From: a virus
DNA: 30,297 bases
Reading direction: 5' to 3' (one strand)
IMG/VR virus record: IMGVR_UViG_3300047564_001749
Coordinates: 1 to 30,297 of that record
Within the stretch, counting starts at the first letter, position 1; every line of letters starts with the position of its first letter. Both the position numbers and the translations under genes were made by a program. Positions 20,242 to 25,469 of the stretch are shown piece after piece. The notes under the pieces are model-generated. The model saw only the letters and a list, made by a program, of their open reading frames with translations. It searched no databases and was not told where the DNA came from.

Positions 20242-20493
20242 TTATTTCATCCTCGCCCCGCGAGTCCTCGGGAAGCTGCGGTTCTCACTCTTCGGCACAG
20301 CCTTCAGGTTCTTACGGTCTACGCTGCCACCTTTTATCAGCGGCTTCACATGGTGCACGTCCTTGCCGTCGCCCTTACTGACTACCCCTTCCTTCTCCAT
20401 GAGAAGTCGGGCGCGGTTACGCGCTGCACGGTTGGCCCTTTGCTTAGGCTTGCCATGATACGCATCGTATTCACTTCGGTAGTTTCGTGGCAT
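20242..20493 (-). CDS. Small HNH endonuclease (83 aa)
   Basis: The N-terminus MPRNYRSEYDAYHGKPKQRANRAARN is interrupted here only for length; the pattern (MPRNYR..YD.Y.G.P.Q...RA.RN.AR) and the core GDGKDVHHVKPL (Asp45, His47, His48), then Asn62 and Asn71 in KNLKAVPKSENRSF, identify the compact HNH proteins common in T7-like and other phages. The basic N-terminal helix should bind DNA. In many phages it is a free-standing nuclease of uncertain role, either selfish or involved in DNA processing. It sits between the Cas4-type nuclease (three bases away) and the helicase promoter. Confidence 0.85.
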   Translation of the reverse strand: MPRNYRSEYDAYHGKPKQRANRAARNRARLLMEKEGVVSKGDGKDVHHVKPLIKGGSVDRKNLKAVPKSENRSFPRTRGARMK

Positions 20494-20496
20494 ATA

Positions 20497-22119
20497 TCAC
20501 CTATGTTCACACACGTCCTCAGACACCGGGCAGAACTTACAAAGTCCGCTTGGGCTCGCATTCCATACGTCGTTTGTGAGATTAGCCTCTACCATCGAAG
20601 CGTACCCCGCCCATTTGGACAGGATATCTGACATCTGATCTCGTTTGTACAACGACTGAATAATATCGTTAGGTACGATAAAGAACAACATAGACTTAAC
20701 CTTCTCCACTTCTGGGAAGTGAGTCATCGTCATAGCAGCCATCAACTCAAGCTGCGACGTGTCGGCATAACGACTGCTCTTACCGGTGTTGTGTGTCGGT
20801 ATCATCCTCTCCGTGCATAAGAAAGTGTGGTCGGGGGATGATACCGCTATACATTGGGTTGGTACGATAGGTATAGACTCTACTTTAACTGCATGCCTCG
20901 TGTTGGATCCTATGTTAGACCATTCTTTTTTTATGGCGTCCGCTTTTCGTGGGAGTTTGAACGGATTTATATTTATGGGCCTAAACGACACTGGAAATGC
21001 CGTAACAGTTTTACCAAACCCGTTAGCAGTAACTCTACTTTGTAGAGGACGCTGGCCCAACGAGCAGAGCAGCTCACAAATATCATCCGAAAGTTGCTTG
21101 CTGGTCGTAGTAAACACAGCGGATTTGCGTGTAGGGTTGGCGTTACCATCCCCGTCCATCAACCCTTGGAGTAGCTCTAGCCTTTGGTTATGACTCGCTC
21201 TCAAATAAACTTTAGGAATATGCTTCGGTACACCTAGCAAATTCGCTAAGCGAAGTTGTGTGCGCAAACCTTTTGCAGTACGCGTTGGGCAGGCACCGTA
21301 ACTACCAGTACCCATATCTACTGGGTACCCCCGCCGCTGGATTTCCTCCCACACGAAGGCATCCGGTTTACTTATCTCACCCGAACCTACGGAGCCGTCC
21401 GCTATCCACAGCCCTAACACGTACGGATCTATGGGCAAACTTATATCAGGCAAGTTAAGAGAACCAGTCAAAGGTATCTTTGGTATATAAGTTCGTTGCT
21501 TTTTATTACGTTTACCCATTAAGTCTTTTACATTTATAGCACTGCCATCGGTCAGCTTCCATAAGTGCTCTTCATCACATATAACCGTAGATGTGTCTGA
21601 GAACGTGACTCGGTAGCATGGTATGTACTTAACCTGTGACTTACCAACAACATTACACACCGCCCCTGTGGCATCAAATACCTCGTCACCAACACGGATA
21701 TCCCGCATCGTAGTGAAGCCCGTGGGGGTGGGGATTTTAGTATCTAGGGCTAAGCCTTTCCAATCACCCACCCACGCCGTCTTACCGTTGACAACCAACA
21801 GATCGGGGATACCTCGGAACCACACACCTTCTTCAAAAAACCCGCAAGGCTTGAAGTCCTTGGTCATGCCTAGCTTAAGCTCACAGTGCCGGTCTCCCGG
21901 CATGGCTTTGATCTTATCCAGTACGGATTGGTGTTTACCAAGATGCTCAGGTAGCGGAGTATCCTCCATCAAGTACTTCTCAAACGCCTCATGCACAAGG
22001 TTGCCGTAGAGGGTAGCCTCCGTGGGTTGGGACTTGAAGCGCTTGAGAATCCGTACTTGGTGGTACCGCCTAGCACAGCCTTGGTAGTCTTTGATTGATG
22101 AGTGTGAGTGGATGAGCAT
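20497..22119 (-). CDS. Cas4/RecB-type PD-(D/E)XK exonuclease interrupted by an intein (540 aa precursor)
   Basis: After splicing the enzyme would have 217 residues. Nuclease motifs: FRGIPDLLVV (Asp106), WVGDWK (Asp119, Lys121) joined by splicing to TGKSSRY, then QLELMAAM. Cys15 (DYQGCARRYH) plus a C-terminal trio Cys527, Cys530, Cys537 (CKFCPVSEDVC) is the layout of the iron-sulfur cluster in Cas4, AddB and related nucleases. It should degrade or resect DNA ends during phage replication or recombination, alongside the SNF2 helicase and polymerase. Residues 122-444 are an intein inserted between Lys121 and the Thr of the TGK motif, so the unspliced protein should be inactive. The ATG lacks a clear ribosome-binding site; it follows the polymerase C-half gene by 14 bases. 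Confidence 0.88.
   Translation of the reverse strand: MLIHSHSSIKDYQGCARRYHQVRILKRFKSQPTEATLYGNLVHEAFEKYLMEDTPLPEHLGKHQSVLDKIKAMPGDRHCELKLGMTKDFKPCGFFEEGVWFRGIPDLLVVNGKTAWVGDWKGLALDTKIPTPTGFTTMRDIRVGDEVFDATGAVCNVVGKSQVKYIPCYRVTFSDTSTVICDEEHLWKLTDGSAINVKDLMGKRNKKQRTYIPKIPLTGSLNLPDISLPIDPYVLGLWIADGSVGSGEISKPDAFVWEEIQRRGYPVDMGTGSYGACPTRTAKGLRTQLRLANLLGVPKHIPKVYLRASHNQRLELLQGLMDGDGNANPTRKSAVFTTTSKQLSDDICELLCSLGQRPLQSRVTANGFGKTVTAFPVSFRPININPFKLPRKADAIKKEWSNIGSNTRHAVKVESIPIVPTQCIAVSSPDHTFLCTERMIPTHNTGKSSRYADTSQLELMAAMTMTHFPEVEKVKSMLFFIVPNDIIQSLYKRDQMSDILSKWAGYASMVEANLTNDVWNASPSGLCKFCPVSEDVCEHR
20788..21756 (-). mobile_element. Class 3-type LAGLIDADG intein in the nuclease gene (323 aa)
   Basis: Boundaries Gly122 and Asn444, with Thr445 as +1 residue, are set by rejoining VGDWK to TGKSS. 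Block A is GLALDTKIPTPTGF with VGDEVFD; block B is VICDEEHLWKL; block F is TQCIAVSSPDHTFL; block G ends MIPTHN. The first residue is Gly, not Cys or Ser. Trp187 two after the block B His, Cys423 at block F position 4 and Thr442 before HN form the W-C-T signature of class 3 inteins, where the block F Cys is the first nucleophile. Two LAGLIDADG motifs (YVLGLWIADGS and LLQGLMDGDGN) show a homing endonuclease domain that looks intact. Class and boundaries are inferred from motifs. Confidence 0.88.
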
Positions 22120-22133
22120 GATACGTTTTTAGG

Positions 22134-23069
22134 TTAGCAATCCCCGTATGATGCACCCCATCCCGATTCACATGCAAGCGGCAATCCTGCAGCCCATGAC
22201 GGACGCCAAGACATACACTCCTCCACATAGCGCACAGCCTCCTCCCGCTCGTCGATAGGGGCGATACACCCGATGGCATCATGCACGGTCAGCACGACCT
22301 TATAGCGCTTGGCGATCCTCAACATCTGTTCAGCGATGATGCAACGGGCGATTGCCTGTGTGTAGTTCTCACAAACTTTCCCGGGATATATATCGATCGT
22401 CTGCCCCTTGGACTTGTAGTACCAACGCCCCTGCTCGCCCTGCTTAAGCTCAGGGTACTGAATATGCAGCCCGCTCGGTAGCGTCAACCCTTTACCCGGT
22501 TCGACACGTACGATACCCCGAGTGTCCACAACGAACGGCATACCCGCAGCCAGCATGTGGAGTGCTGTGCCTGAATTAGTCCACAACTCAGGGATGCGGT
22601 TGTAAGCTTTACGGTACACGGTAACAATCCGCTTCGCTTCCTCTTCAGTAACCGTCACCCCCGCACCAGTCTTTAAGAATAGCTGTAACTTCTTAGCTCC
22701 AACGCCGTAGCCACACCCAAGCACGGTGGACTTACCGATAAACCGCTGCTCTTTTGATATCTGATCAGGAGCAATCCCGTAGATGTGTGACGCCATGATT
22801 CGATACACATCTTCTTTTCTAGCGAAAGCTTCAACCAGATCATCCTGCCCAGCCAACCACGCAAGGGTGCGCGCCTCGATTTGCGACGAGTCTGAGTCGA
22901 TAAATACGTAGCCCTCGGGAGCGAGGATCGCCTTCTTAAGCCGCCCAGCCATAGCTGTGCGTGAGGGGAGGTTCTGAAGGTTAACATTGTCTGAGTTGTG
23001 AACAAGTTTGCCGTTGGCAACAAACCTATGCCGGGGTCCGCAGTTCTTTATGTCGTATACCGCAACCAT
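22134..23069 (-). CDS. polA: DNA polymerase I C-terminal half with N-terminal C-intein (311 aa)
   Basis: The start ATG 23069 has AGGAG eight bases upstream; an earlier in-frame ATG at 23099 lacks one. The first 25 residues are a C-intein ending KLVHN, followed by Ser as +1. The rest is the family A polymerase palm and fingers: DNVNLQNLPSR, motif A FIDSDSSQIEAR (catalytic Asp60), motif B RFIGKSTVLGCGYG (Lys113) and motif C LTVHDAIG (His263, Asp264). Motif C has Ala where E. coli Pol I has Glu. Alone it lacks the exonuclease domain and the start of the polymerase domain, so it needs protein trans-splicing to the product of 23672-24961. The extein join GRWGG+SDNVNLQN is one of the most conserved sites of the family. 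Confidence 0.9.
   Translation of the reverse strand: MVAVYDIKNCGPRHRFVANGKLVHNSDNVNLQNLPSRTAMAGRLKKAILAPEGYVFIDSDSSQIEARTLAWLAGQDDLVEAFARKEDVYRIMASHIYGIAPDQISKEQRFIGKSTVLGCGYGVGAKKLQLFLKTGAGVTVTEEEAKRIVTVYRKAYNRIPELWTNSGTALHMLAAGMPFVVDTRGIVRVEPGKGLTLPSGLHIQYPELKQGEQGRWYYKSKGQTIDIYPGKVCENYTQAIARCIIAEQMLRIAKRYKVVLTVHDAIGCIAPIDEREEAVRYVEECMSWRPSWAAGLPLACESGWGASYGDC
22995..23069 (-). other. C-intein of the split polymerase intein (25 aa)
   Basis: It encodes MVAVYDIKNCGPRHRF plus VANGKLVHN. Block F (VYDIK..GPRHRF) and block G (KLVHN, then Ser) are intact. Its own Shine-Dalgarno site and ATG show that it is translated separately from the N-intein, so it should act in trans. It overlaps the 3' end of the HNH gene by 44 bases. 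Confidence 0.9.
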
Positions 23070-23820
23070 CGTGTTTTCTCCTCTGTAAGATTTCATCATC
23101 AGTAGCTCCCCTCTTTATCCATGTGCGCAAAGTTTCATAAGTCACATCTGTTCTAAGTTTCTGTAATCGTCGTATCCGCTCTCCCGTTTCGGTTCGCTTA
23201 TAAGCTCGTTTGTTTCTGGCTTGTTCTACTCGCGTAGCCCATCGAAGGTTGCCCGGTTCGTAGTGCCTATTGTTATCTATACGATCTATGCTATGGGTAG
23301 GTGTTGGTTTGGGCCCTAAGTTGTTCAGTACCCATTCCACAGCGCTACGTGTGGTAGGGAATAAGAACCTAATACCTCTACCGCCATAGTCAACGTACGC
23401 CACATTGTTCTTATTTGCACACCTACCTTTAGCCTGCTGCATTAGAGTTCTTACATGGGTTACTACATCCCGCCCAAAGCGCTCTGTTAGAGGGTCCGTT
23501 CGTTTTGCTGCCACTTCTGCTGCCTTGTGTGCTGCGACCTCAGCCATGCGCACACGGTTCTCTTTACTCATGGCGAGCATACGATTGCGTACCGAGCACG
23601 ACATACAAGACTTAGACTTATCGGCCAATAACTCACGCACCCTTACAAACTTCTCTACGCCGCATTTACACTTACACAAAAGCTTTTCTTTTGTTGACTT
23701 GTGCAAGTCTTCGAGCGGCGTCCACAGCGTCTTGGCTAGGGCTGCTGGCAATCTGGATGCGACATTCTCTCTGCATTGCCTCTCGTAAGCTAATCTCACC
23801 TGAGTCTGTGAATACGACAT
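23026..23820 (-). CDS. HNH homing endonuclease between the two intein halves (264 aa)
   Basis: A Cys-rich finger at residues 49-75 (CKCKCG..., SCMSC) is followed by a helical linker and the nuclease core THSIDRIDNNRHYEPGNLRW (His176, Asp179, Asp182, Asn191), then ARNKR. This is the HNH architecture of phage homing endonucleases that cut a gene's uninserted allele. The gene overlaps the N-intein gene by 149 bases and the C-intein gene by 44. The zinc-finger part starts almost exactly where the N-intein frame stops, so the first 40 residues may not be translated and a later alternative start is possible. The ATG at 23820 lacks a strong ribosome-binding site. Its likely target is the polymerase gene, from position. 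Confidence 0.8.
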   Translation of the reverse strand: MSYSQTQVRLAYERQCRENVASRLPAALAKTLWTPLEDLHKSTKEKLLCKCKCGVEKFVRVRELLADKSKSCMSCSVRNRMLAMSKENRVRMAEVAAHKAAEVAAKRTDPLTERFGRDVVTHVRTLMQQAKGRCANKNNVAYVDYGGRGIRFLFPTTRSAVEWVLNNLGPKPTPTHSIDRIDNNRHYEPGNLRWATRVEQARNKRAYKRTETGERIRRLQKLRTDVTYETLRTWIKRGATDDEILQRRKHDGCGIRHKELRTPA

Positions 23821-24007
23821 GGTCTTCTGTCCCTGTTACACCATCCCACGAAATGACTTCCTGAAACCCGCTGAACTGAACTCCTTCATGCTCAACAAAC
23901 TCCACGCCATCCCACACTAAATCATCTGCTAGCACGTCAACTATGCGCTTCTCAACTACCCCTTTATCTACATCGTACACTAACACCGCTGTATCGGCAA
24001 CTAAGCA
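23672..24007 (-). other. N-intein of the split polymerase intein (111 aa)
   Basis: It starts with Cys (class 1 nucleophile) in CLVADTAVLV; block B is GTEDHVVF with Thr and His in the TxxH pattern. After ISLREAMQRECRIQIA it runs on in SSPSQDAVDAARR and stops. There is no endonuclease domain. With the 25-residue C-intein the total is 136 residues, the size of a minimal splicing domain. Its last 49 codons are also read in another frame as the start of the HNH gene. Confidence 0.88.
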
Positions 24008-24961
24008 ACCACCCCACCGACCCGAGTGTGCAGCGTAGTATCTCAACGGCACAGGGAAGTCACCTCTATAGGAGATGTCAATAAAGCGCTGCGTTCTCGT
24101 CTCCTCCAGCGTACTCTTCACCCCCAGTCGTGCAGCGACGATAGCCTGTACCTCCAGATCCTCGTGCTCCAGCAAAGCTTTGAACGCTTCATCTGTCTTA
24201 GCGAAAGCGTAAGTCTCCTTGCCGGTGGTCGGGCTGATCTTCATGGGTGGCGCTATGCCATGCTCACGCAGCATGTCCGCAAGCTGCGGGTTACTCATCA
24301 GCCGTGCCTTGTCATCTGCACTTAGCTTACTCAGCAGTGCTTCCTTCTGTGCTACGACGTCCGCAAGGTGATCCTTCAGCAGCTCACGGTCAAGCGTCAG
24401 CCGGGGGTCGGTAAACATCTTGAGTGTCAGGTCGATAAGCCTTAGCTCCTGACGTGGGAACCCTGCCTTTAGATAGCGTTTGAAGAGTGTGTGCGTCAGC
24501 TCAACGTCGTTGACACAGTACGCCCCGTACCGGGCAAGAGACTCTTGGTCGAAGTCTTTGTAGCGCTTACCCATCGCATGCACTACCTCGTCGCCCTTCT
24601 GCCCGATGCCCATACGCTCGGCTTGCGTCTTGAGGCTATGGCTCTTCTCGTGAGGATAGAGTGCCCGGGACATACACATAGTATCGGCTAGCCCAGCGGG
24701 TTGTATCCCGTAGCGCCACGCGAGGATGGCAGCGTCAAACATTGTGTTTTGGCACAATACCAGCGCTTCGCTCCAGTCAATCGCTTTAAGCGCCGCCTCT
24801 ACTTGAGGTTGCGGATACCACGTCGTTTCCTCCTCATCAATTTTGATGGCTACCCCAATCGTCTCAAACAACGATGATCGCACATACTCCTCTGTACTTA
24901 TTTTGGATAATGAGTATTCGCGGTCATAGAAAGTCTCCGTGTCTATTGTGATGAGTTTCAT
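23672..24961 (-). CDS. polA: DNA polymerase I N-terminal half with C-terminal N-intein (429 aa)
   Basis: The start is ATG 24961 (MKLITIDTETFYD); a TTG at 24997 would lie inside the upstream HNH gene. Residues 1-190 are a 3'-5' exonuclease: Asp7 and Glu9 in IDTETF, Asn72 and Asp76 in QNTMFD, Tyr148 and Asp152 in YCVND. Residues up to 318 enter the polymerase domain and stop at YYAAHSGRWGG, the conserved TGR-like element. Cys319 begins an N-intein of 111 residues (CLVADTAVLV, WDGVEFVEHEGV, GTEDHVVF), and the frame stops there. Splicing in trans to the product of 22134-23069 would give an intact polymerase of about 600 residues with proofreading and synthesis. It is the main replicative polymerase visible in the window. 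Confidence 0.9.
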   Translation of the reverse strand: MKLITIDTETFYDREYSLSKISTEEYVRSSLFETIGVAIKIDEEETTWYPQPQVEAALKAIDWSEALVLCQNTMFDAAILAWRYGIQPAGLADTMCMSRALYPHEKSHSLKTQAERMGIGQKGDEVVHAMGKRYKDFDQESLARYGAYCVNDVELTHTLFKRYLKAGFPRQELRLIDLTLKMFTDPRLTLDRELLKDHLADVVAQKEALLSKLSADDKARLMSNPQLADMLREHGIAPPMKISPTTGKETYAFAKTDEAFKALLEHEDLEVQAIVAARLGVKSTLEETRTQRFIDISYRGDFPVPLRYYAAHSGRWGGCLVADTAVLVYDVDKGVVEKRIVDVLADDLVWDGVEFVEHEGVQFSGFQEVISWDGVTGTEDHVVFTDSGEISLREAMQRECRIQIASSPSQDAVDAARRLAQVNKRKAFV

Positions 24962-24965
24962 TGTG

Positions 24966-25469
24966 TTAAACGTCCTTGTAGGTTTCTCGTCTGACAATCA
25001 AACTAATTGCGCGTTGTGATACACCAAATTCCAAAGCTAGTTGCCCCTGCAGGCTCCCCCCCGCGTCGTATCGACGACGTATTTCAACCACTTGCTCCGC
25101 TGTCAACTTGGCGTTAGCGTGTTTACTTCTGGGTTGTACCTTTCTTCCTTTGGCGTATGCGTCTAGCTGATTGGCCCGCATAGAACCAAGAAACAGGTGC
25201 TCTGGATTACAGCAAGGCCTGTTATCGCATTTGTGTAGTACGAATCGCTGATACCGCCTAGCTACATTTTTCTGTCGGAAGTTAGTTGGTAGTTTGATAC
25301 CTCCTTTAGCTAGGAAATACGCTACCCGGTGCGCTTGTACTTGCATACCGTGCCAAGATAAATTGCCGTAACCACCACTGGTCCTAGATCCTTGCCACTC
25401 CCAACAGTCGTTAGCGGCACCTATCTTGACGCGGCTCCAAAAATTTTGAGGTGTGTTTTTTGCAGACAT
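24966..25469 (-). CDS. Free-standing HNH endonuclease with C-terminal HTH (167 aa)
   Basis: Residues 1-60 (FWSRVKIGAANDCWEWQG, AHRVAYFLAKGGI) and the core VLHKCDNRPCCNPEHLFLG (His79, Asn83, Asn88, His91) match the HNH_3-type phage endonucleases. The C-terminal 50 residues (LTAEQVVEIRRRYDAGGS, LALEFGVSQRAISLIVRRE) form a helix-turn-helix for DNA recognition. It is inserted between the VRR-NUC gene and the polymerase gene and stops four bases before the polymerase ATG. The start ATG has no Shine-Dalgarno site. It is most likely a selfish homing endonuclease targeting this junction. Confidence 0.87.
   Translation of the reverse strand: MSAKNTPQNFWSRVKIGAANDCWEWQGSRTSGGYGNLSWHGMQVQAHRVAYFLAKGGIKLPTNFRQKNVARRYQRFVLHKCDNRPCCNPEHLFLGSMRANQLDAYAKGRKVQPRSKHANAKLTAEQVVEIRRRYDAGGSLQGQLALEFGVSQRAISLIVRRETYKDV

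Follow-up and report, generated by a model that had tools for sequence, protein, structure and literature searches.

The window analysed here, a 30.3-kb viral contig (IMG/VR record IMGVR_UViG_3300047564_001749), carries a family-A DNA polymerase gene (polA) that is broken into two halves by an insert with split intein parts and an HNH endonuclease gene. Very probably, the locus is a fractured gene that splices in trans and spreads by homing, descended from an intein in which an endonuclease was nested out of frame. The preliminary description of this DNA had read the locus as a fractured gene, with a polymerase that would become active by trans-splicing and an HNH gene that would drive the spread of the insert. 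Support for that reading comes from the retained splicing residues, a +1 nucleophile tied to the insert, the patchy occurrence of the insert, empty sites nearby and a conserved HNH protein, with splicing and cutting as its predicted activities.

A polymerase gene interrupted at one site

The polA cassette lies on the minus strand throughout (Table 1). The gene is interrupted at GRWGG/S, within TGRxSxxxxNLQN, a motif conserved among family-A polymerases (Pol I). A GRWGG-Cys end of the N-half, a 264-residue HNH gene, a VHN-Ser junction in the C-half and the polymerase domain had been described beforehand, and every one of these elements is present exactly where it had been placed. The N-half starts with an ATG at 24961 and includes a 3'-5' exonuclease domain in its extein (Pfam, 1.3e-5). 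Its intein part begins with CLVADTAVLVYD and contains TGTEDHVVFT further on, and the C-intein ends with VAVYDIKNCGPRHRFVANGKLVHN, followed by Ser. The enzyme gene is broken at this single site and its homologues are uninterrupted (36 distinct empty-site homologues); each half bears an intein part with splicing residues (C1, TEDH, terminal HN and +1 Ser); and an endonuclease gene with its own start separates the halves. This gene, earlier said to lie between them, is indeed a separate open reading frame (ORF) at the junction, but it overlaps both halves in other frames.

Table 1 Elements of the split polA cassette and their positions in the window
Feature	Coordinates	Strand	Remarks
polA N-half coding sequence, 429 amino acids (aa): exonuclease, start of polymerase domain and N-intein	23672..24961	-	conserved in ~30 split relatives
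N-extein, 318 aa, ends RYYAAHSGRWGG (...GRWGG)	24008..24961	-	90% identical to uninterrupted L004/L005
N-intein, 111 aa, then stop; Cys1 at 24007, block B TEDH	23672..24007	-	
Shine-Dalgarno-like AGGGA for HNH start	23830..23834	-	within N-intein T-G-T codons
HNH endonuclease ORF, 264 aa, +1 frame relative to N-intein; four invariant Cys (finger)	23026..23820	-	
Strong Shine-Dalgarno AGAGGAG of C-half	23078..23084	-	Shine-Dalgarno energy in window -9.1
polA C-half coding sequence from likely start (MVAVYDI...)	22134..23069	-	in-frame upstream ATGs at 23099/23096
C-intein, 25 aa, ends GKLVHN	22995..23069	-	
+1 Ser codon, predicted splicing nucleophile	22992..22994	-	Gln in empty allele of sister L005
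C-extein, 286 aa, family-A polymerase domain (Pfam 1.5e-34)	22134..22994	-	

Splicing residues accompany the insert

None of the 41 split inserts, which are non-redundant at 90% and cover every split layout, lacks Cys1, TxxH, the aromatic-Asp of block F or the terminal Asn. Of these residues, only TxxH and block F count as independent evidence, since the locus finder favoured Cys1 and Asn followed by C/S/T. Residue +1 of the intein offers a comparison that is independent of the finder's criteria. A nucleophile occupies it in 26 of 26 inserted alleles (Ser in 25, Cys in 1) versus S, T or C in 8 of the 36 distinct empty alleles (Fisher p = 1.4e-10), and the closest empty relatives have Gln. Because Ser or Cys at +1 accompanies the insert, which is hard to explain without splicing, we infer that the halves are spliced, and the polymerase split intein is predicted to act in trans. 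With a nucleophile at N1, TxxH, a terminal Asn and C/S/T at +1, it has the residues of a class 1 intein. Its HINT fold is assigned through the AlphaFold model and PDB matches of a contiguous relative, L057, and not from the window halves.

Alternatively, the polymerase fragments might assemble and work unspliced, with the intein pieces as relics, much as the NrdA of phage Aeh1, split by a homing endonuclease gene, works as two peptides (cited in PMC10448857). We regard this as very unlikely. TxxH and block F would hardly persist in every split insert, nor would S or C stand at +1 whenever the insert is present; the intein halves are more conserved than the exteins, and locus L098, which has lost most of its HNH gene, is still split and keeps both intein halves. 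The break in Aeh1 NrdA is one without a splicing element, whereas the intein blocks of the window are present and conserved.

Three overlapping frames with separate starts

The HNH ORF overlaps the N-half by 149 bp in the +1 frame, the last 149 bp of the N-intein encoding the HNH N terminus as well, and it overlaps the C-half, which is in the +2 frame, by 44-74 bp. About 30 inserts from viral contigs (non-redundant at 90%) share this layout of N-intein in frame 0, HNH in +1 and C-intein in +2. The split insert is ~1.0 kb long, and each of its three ORFs has its own start and Shine-Dalgarno (SD) site. In a further group of split inserts at a related site, the C-part is in frame 0.

This recurrence refutes an assembly error, which the preliminary description had named as a way in which its reading could fail. 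That a contiguous intein was wrongly sequenced or assembled is conceivable for metagenomic contigs, but the probability of this is negligible: frames, start codons and stop positions are the same in ~30 non-redundant contigs from independent metagenomes, and stops in the former linker frame are as numerous as expected without constraint.

The HNH ATG lies at intein position +187 (+190 in two cases) and overlaps the block-B His codon CAT, taking its G from the base that follows. In nearly all split relatives the C-half ATG is found 78 bases before the C-intein end (75 in the window), and the C-inteins of split forms comprise 25-26 residues. The C-half of the window most likely starts at the internal ATG 23069, because this ATG stands behind a strong SD (AGAGGAG) and is conserved at the equivalent place in relatives. 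The mean SD energy is -5.4 kcal/mol at the HNH start and -7.0 at the C-half start, compared with -3.0 at random positions; at the +187 HNH start, 93% of split loci reach -4 kcal/mol or below versus 32% of random positions. As these energies are stronger than random, the three polypeptides are probably initiated independently.

The HNH protein and the probable spread of the insert

That the middle ORF encodes an HNH-type endonuclease with a Cys finger is borne out by its profile and its residues. It matches phrog_374, its best PHROG HNH endonuclease family, at 6.8e-34, and displays the invariant Cys51, Cys53, Cys72 and Cys75 together with the motif S-x-D-R-x-D-N...G-N-L-R-W-A...Q..N. The HNH proteins of relatives are 46-64% identical to that of the window, and the AlphaFold model is confident (predicted local distance difference test 86). 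A Vsr-type nuclease was considered for this ORF and rejected in favour of the PHROG HNH families.

A search of metagenomes for the junction with and without the insert, as had been suggested, yielded ~30 inserted contigs besides the 36 distinct empty alleles. On a tree of 53 polymerases, from which the insert was excluded, its presence changes 13 times, and at least 11 gains or losses are forced by well-supported branches; in 99% of pairs, moreover, similarity is higher between the N-inteins than between the exteins. Taken together, these two observations fit a repeated gain or loss of the insert, as in homing. It is from this patchy distribution that we predict the HNH protein to cut the intein-free polA allele. 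The sister contig L005, whose site is empty, shares 90% (N-extein) and 92% (C-extein) protein identity and ~84% DNA identity with the window. Comparison with L004/L005 near the insertion site revealed no clear identity gradient that would mark a co-conversion tract.

An old split intein, inherited vertically with a passenger HNH gene and no active homing, would agree with the one insertion site and the fixed architecture, and with a label that is somewhat clustered on the extein tree. The number of forced gains and losses, the conservation of the HNH with its invariant Cys and motif, and the empty site of the sister make such an inheritance unlikely, and we favour a homing insert.

Among the matches listed for named phages there was no split copy of the polA cassette, the nearest relative being a contiguous mini-intein of Moraxella phage Mcat21 (L061 2231-3163; 139 aa; polA-like flank, PLRYASAHTGRYGG). 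This mini-intein lies in an ORF with a ThyX-looking start, possibly a chimera that keeps only the intein and its flank. A prophage copy was sought in genome contigs with an alignment of split N-halves, and 0 of 63 pattern matches were confirmed.

Contiguous relatives hide the endonuclease in another frame

In related inteins that are not split, a single frame is open between Cys1 and the terminal Asn, and the same DNA carries an HNH gene in another frame. We collected 82 such contiguous hidden-HNH inteins (90% non-redundant), with the HNH in the +1 frame in 71 and in the -1 frame in 11. Several of their insertion sites are in polA, and others are in helicase-like genes (SNF2-like ones among them) and in further genes. 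Named phages that carry them include the cultured Salmonella Jerseyvirus vB_SenS-Ent2, Escherichia phage Pubbukkers (a Dhillonvirus), Shewanella phage SFCi1, Pseudomonas phage MR14 and APSE-7. The hidden HNH is annotated in none of the phage records inspected; the vB_SenS-Ent2 intein is given there as 'encoding splicing domains'.

To gauge the constraint on the overlapping frames, the synonymous codons of each HNH ORF were permuted, which leaves protein and codon use unchanged. The intein frame of the 82 contiguous forms has 0 stops versus 618 expected, a count that holds partly by definition, as 'contiguous' was defined in this larger set by an open frame. For the first 19 contiguous inserts, which were found by homology, 113 stops were expected, and every open frame has p <= 0.025. 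The third frame is not depleted (832 stops versus 786 expected). Among the 36 split forms, what was once the intein frame contains 592 stops versus 570 expected; with stops at expectation, split forms have lost the double-coding constraint.

Across 35 related pairs, identity amounts to 70% in the HNH frame and to 45% in both the linker frame and the third frame, with HNH exceeding linker in 35 of 35; substitutions are concentrated at the third HNH codon position (1019/841/2239 for positions 1, 2 and 3). From these identities and this codon bias it follows that the HNH frame is selected and that the linker must only stay open. The AlphaFold model of L057 agrees with such a linker, since residues 115-239 are disordered (scores below 50, compared with ~95 for residues 1-82 and ~93 for 243-271). 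In the PDB it matches inteins and HINT domains related to them, best of all gp41-1 (E 1.3e-3).

Start signals of the HNH frame in +1 forms beat those of the other two frames (p ~2e-9 and ~4e-11). Candidate starts cluster at +133, +145 and +187/190, the one near +187 being common to many contiguous forms. At +145 the SD comes from E-V-I codons and the ATG from the following codon pair (aaaggaggtaataacctATG in L258). The nested HNH would be translated from SD sites formed by conserved intein codons. We consider it likely that many seemingly endonuclease-free phage inteins hide a nested HNH, that split inteins arose directly from such dual coding, and that fracturing occurred more than once.

Some polA genes possess two inteins (L105 4001-6126, L106 1966-4100, L096, L128, L129, L136, L143 and L250), namely the split cassette at GRWGG and, beyond it, a contiguous intein with a hidden HNH. 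The split inserts of L105 and L106 are near-identical and their second inteins, at the same site, clearly different, which suggests replacement.

Proposed origin of split forms

Phylogenies of the splicing domain place the split inserts inside the contiguous hidden-HNH (+1) inteins. The group at the GRWGG site of polA (40 rows, 95% support) is nested among contiguous inteins of other sites. Besides split forms with the C-part in the old frame (L151, L154, L157, L158 and L255), it includes L166 and L167, contiguous hidden-HNH inteins inserted almost at the same place in polA. A scan with L166 for contiguous forms at the same site gave matches mainly at the extein end of the query. Separate splits seem to have produced L178, at a different polA site, and L161/L249.

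Two further layouts were observed. In L161 and L164 3522-4751, the endonuclease of a split polA intein at GRF/SG is GIY-YIG-like instead of HNH (by eye, from the L161 translation). L257 3501-4441 is the only case found with the HNH in the frame of the N-intein, its C-intein being in another frame; this could be a frameshift or another kind of split.

The opposite direction, in which contiguous hidden-HNH inteins are re-fused split inteins, draws on the contiguous L166/L167 and the mini-intein of L061, which fall within or beside the split clade with weak support. We judge it improbable, as hidden-HNH contiguous forms span most of the tree, many sites and several genes whereas splits occupy few sites, and as a stop-free reading over ~190 codons would have to be restored each time. 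A change from contiguous to split is the direction that the nesting suggests.

Several points weigh against this overall interpretation. The tree comprises ~109 columns and many weak forks, so that neither the direction from contiguous to split nor the number of splits is firm. Presence and absence of the insert are somewhat clustered on the extein tree, and with 25 residues the C-intein is short next to gp41-1 or DnaE. Pfam HNH does not match the HNH protein, and the PDB has no usable fold match for its AlphaFold model, which leaves PHROG profiles and motifs as the basis of its identity; a search of its profile against PDB sequences gave zero matches, and NCBIfam zero families.

We propose the following course of events. 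An ancestral contiguous intein would have contained a nested HNH gene, the same DNA encoding the nuclease and a stop-free linker. A start codon and an SD would next have arisen before the C-part, after which the linker frame was free to take up stops and indels, resulting in a split intein. Fracturing of the host gene would thereby release the overlap constraint, and may have happened in more than one event (main polA site, L178 and L161/L249). In the present-day cassette, two polypeptides would be made from their own ribosome-binding sites, one with the exonuclease, the N-terminal part of the polymerase and the N-intein, the other with the C-intein and the remaining polymerase. The intein halves would associate and trans-splice at GRWGG/S to release a polymerase of ~604 residues. 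The HNH, translated from the third overlapping frame with its start within the block-B His codon of the N-intein, would cut intein-free polA at the insertion site, and the insert would be copied in.

Neighbouring genes

The window carries further candidate insertions close to polA. At 20497-22119 (-) lies a PD-(D/E)XK nuclease gene with a contiguous LAGLIDADG intein (WVGDWK/GLALDTKIP...THN/TGKS). Its first residue Gly, block-F Cys and Thr +1 presumably make it class 3-like. Directly upstream of polA, a free-standing HNH_3 gene (24966-25469, -) is absent from L004/L005; because the alignment with these sister contigs jumps across it, it looks like a second endonuclease insertion beside polA. 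A small HNH-like ORF (20242-20493, -) between the nuclease and helicase genes matches Pfam HNH at E 0.017, below the cut-off, and L004/L005 have ~257 extra bases near it. Group I and group II introns were also considered, and no Rfam match was obtained in the window at gathering scores; a tRNA scan of the window found none.

Implications

These observations address how natural split inteins originate and how endonuclease genes enter inteins without destroying them. One family displays both states, contiguous with an out-of-frame nuclease and split, freed of double coding. Nested out-of-frame endonuclease inteins are likely split-intein precursors, and it is this wider pattern that is worth following up. 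Some phage inteins whose annotation mentions splicing domains alone, among them inteins of common Salmonella phages, could be active in homing, and a new natural split-intein family with a short C-part (25-26 aa) is on offer for protein engineering.

Comparison with known systems

Fractured genes with split inteins were reportedly described by Dassa et al. in 2009, with Vsr-like endonucleases said to occur in about half of the loci. Like these and the gp41-1 loci, the window combines a phage replication gene, a split intein and an endonuclease between the parts; in the window the gene that is split is a family-A polymerase, and the endonuclease is of HNH type, not Vsr-like.

We examined 44 gp41-1 loci, found with a gp41-1 query checked against PDB 6qaz/6riz. 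In these, a spacer (52 bp as a rule) comes after the N-half stop, and then a GIY-YIG-like gene, another ORF or none; the C-part may be in any frame. The window has neither the spacer and non-overlapping endonuclease nor the free C-half frame of this subtype; because its HNH overlaps both halves in fixed frames, its cassette is a variant distinct from the classical gp41-1 fractured loci. Within the gp41-1 loci L272-L320 the gap holds varied extra ORFs besides the GIY-YIG-like gene, as if it were a cargo site; L296, L297 and L306 have a methyltransferase-like ORF there, and in some loci the gap is 231 bp only and has no ORF.

The ShiLan domain of mycobacteriophage methylases likewise features an out-of-frame HNH with an open host frame and a patchy distribution that suggests homing, and its authors find no splicing domain and conclude that it is not an intein (PMC11855218). 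In the family of the window, by contrast, the HNH is inside an intein splicing domain, and the host frame is closed in the split form. The contiguous polA intein of Salmonella phage vB_SenS-Ent2, a Jerseyvirus, shares homologous splicing blocks and a hidden HNH ORF with the window, but is unsplit, is inserted at another site and has its HNH in the -1 frame.

Searches of an open library of papers gave no account of an out-of-frame endonuclease inside an intein. A possible exception is the actinobacteriophage inteins of 'non-canonical architecture' (10.1101/2025.01.02.630785); these may have overlapping endonucleases and to that extent may limit the novelty of nested-endonuclease inteins. Whereas the fractured gene as a kind is already known, the fixed overlap of three frames and the link to inteins with an out-of-frame HNH appear to be new.

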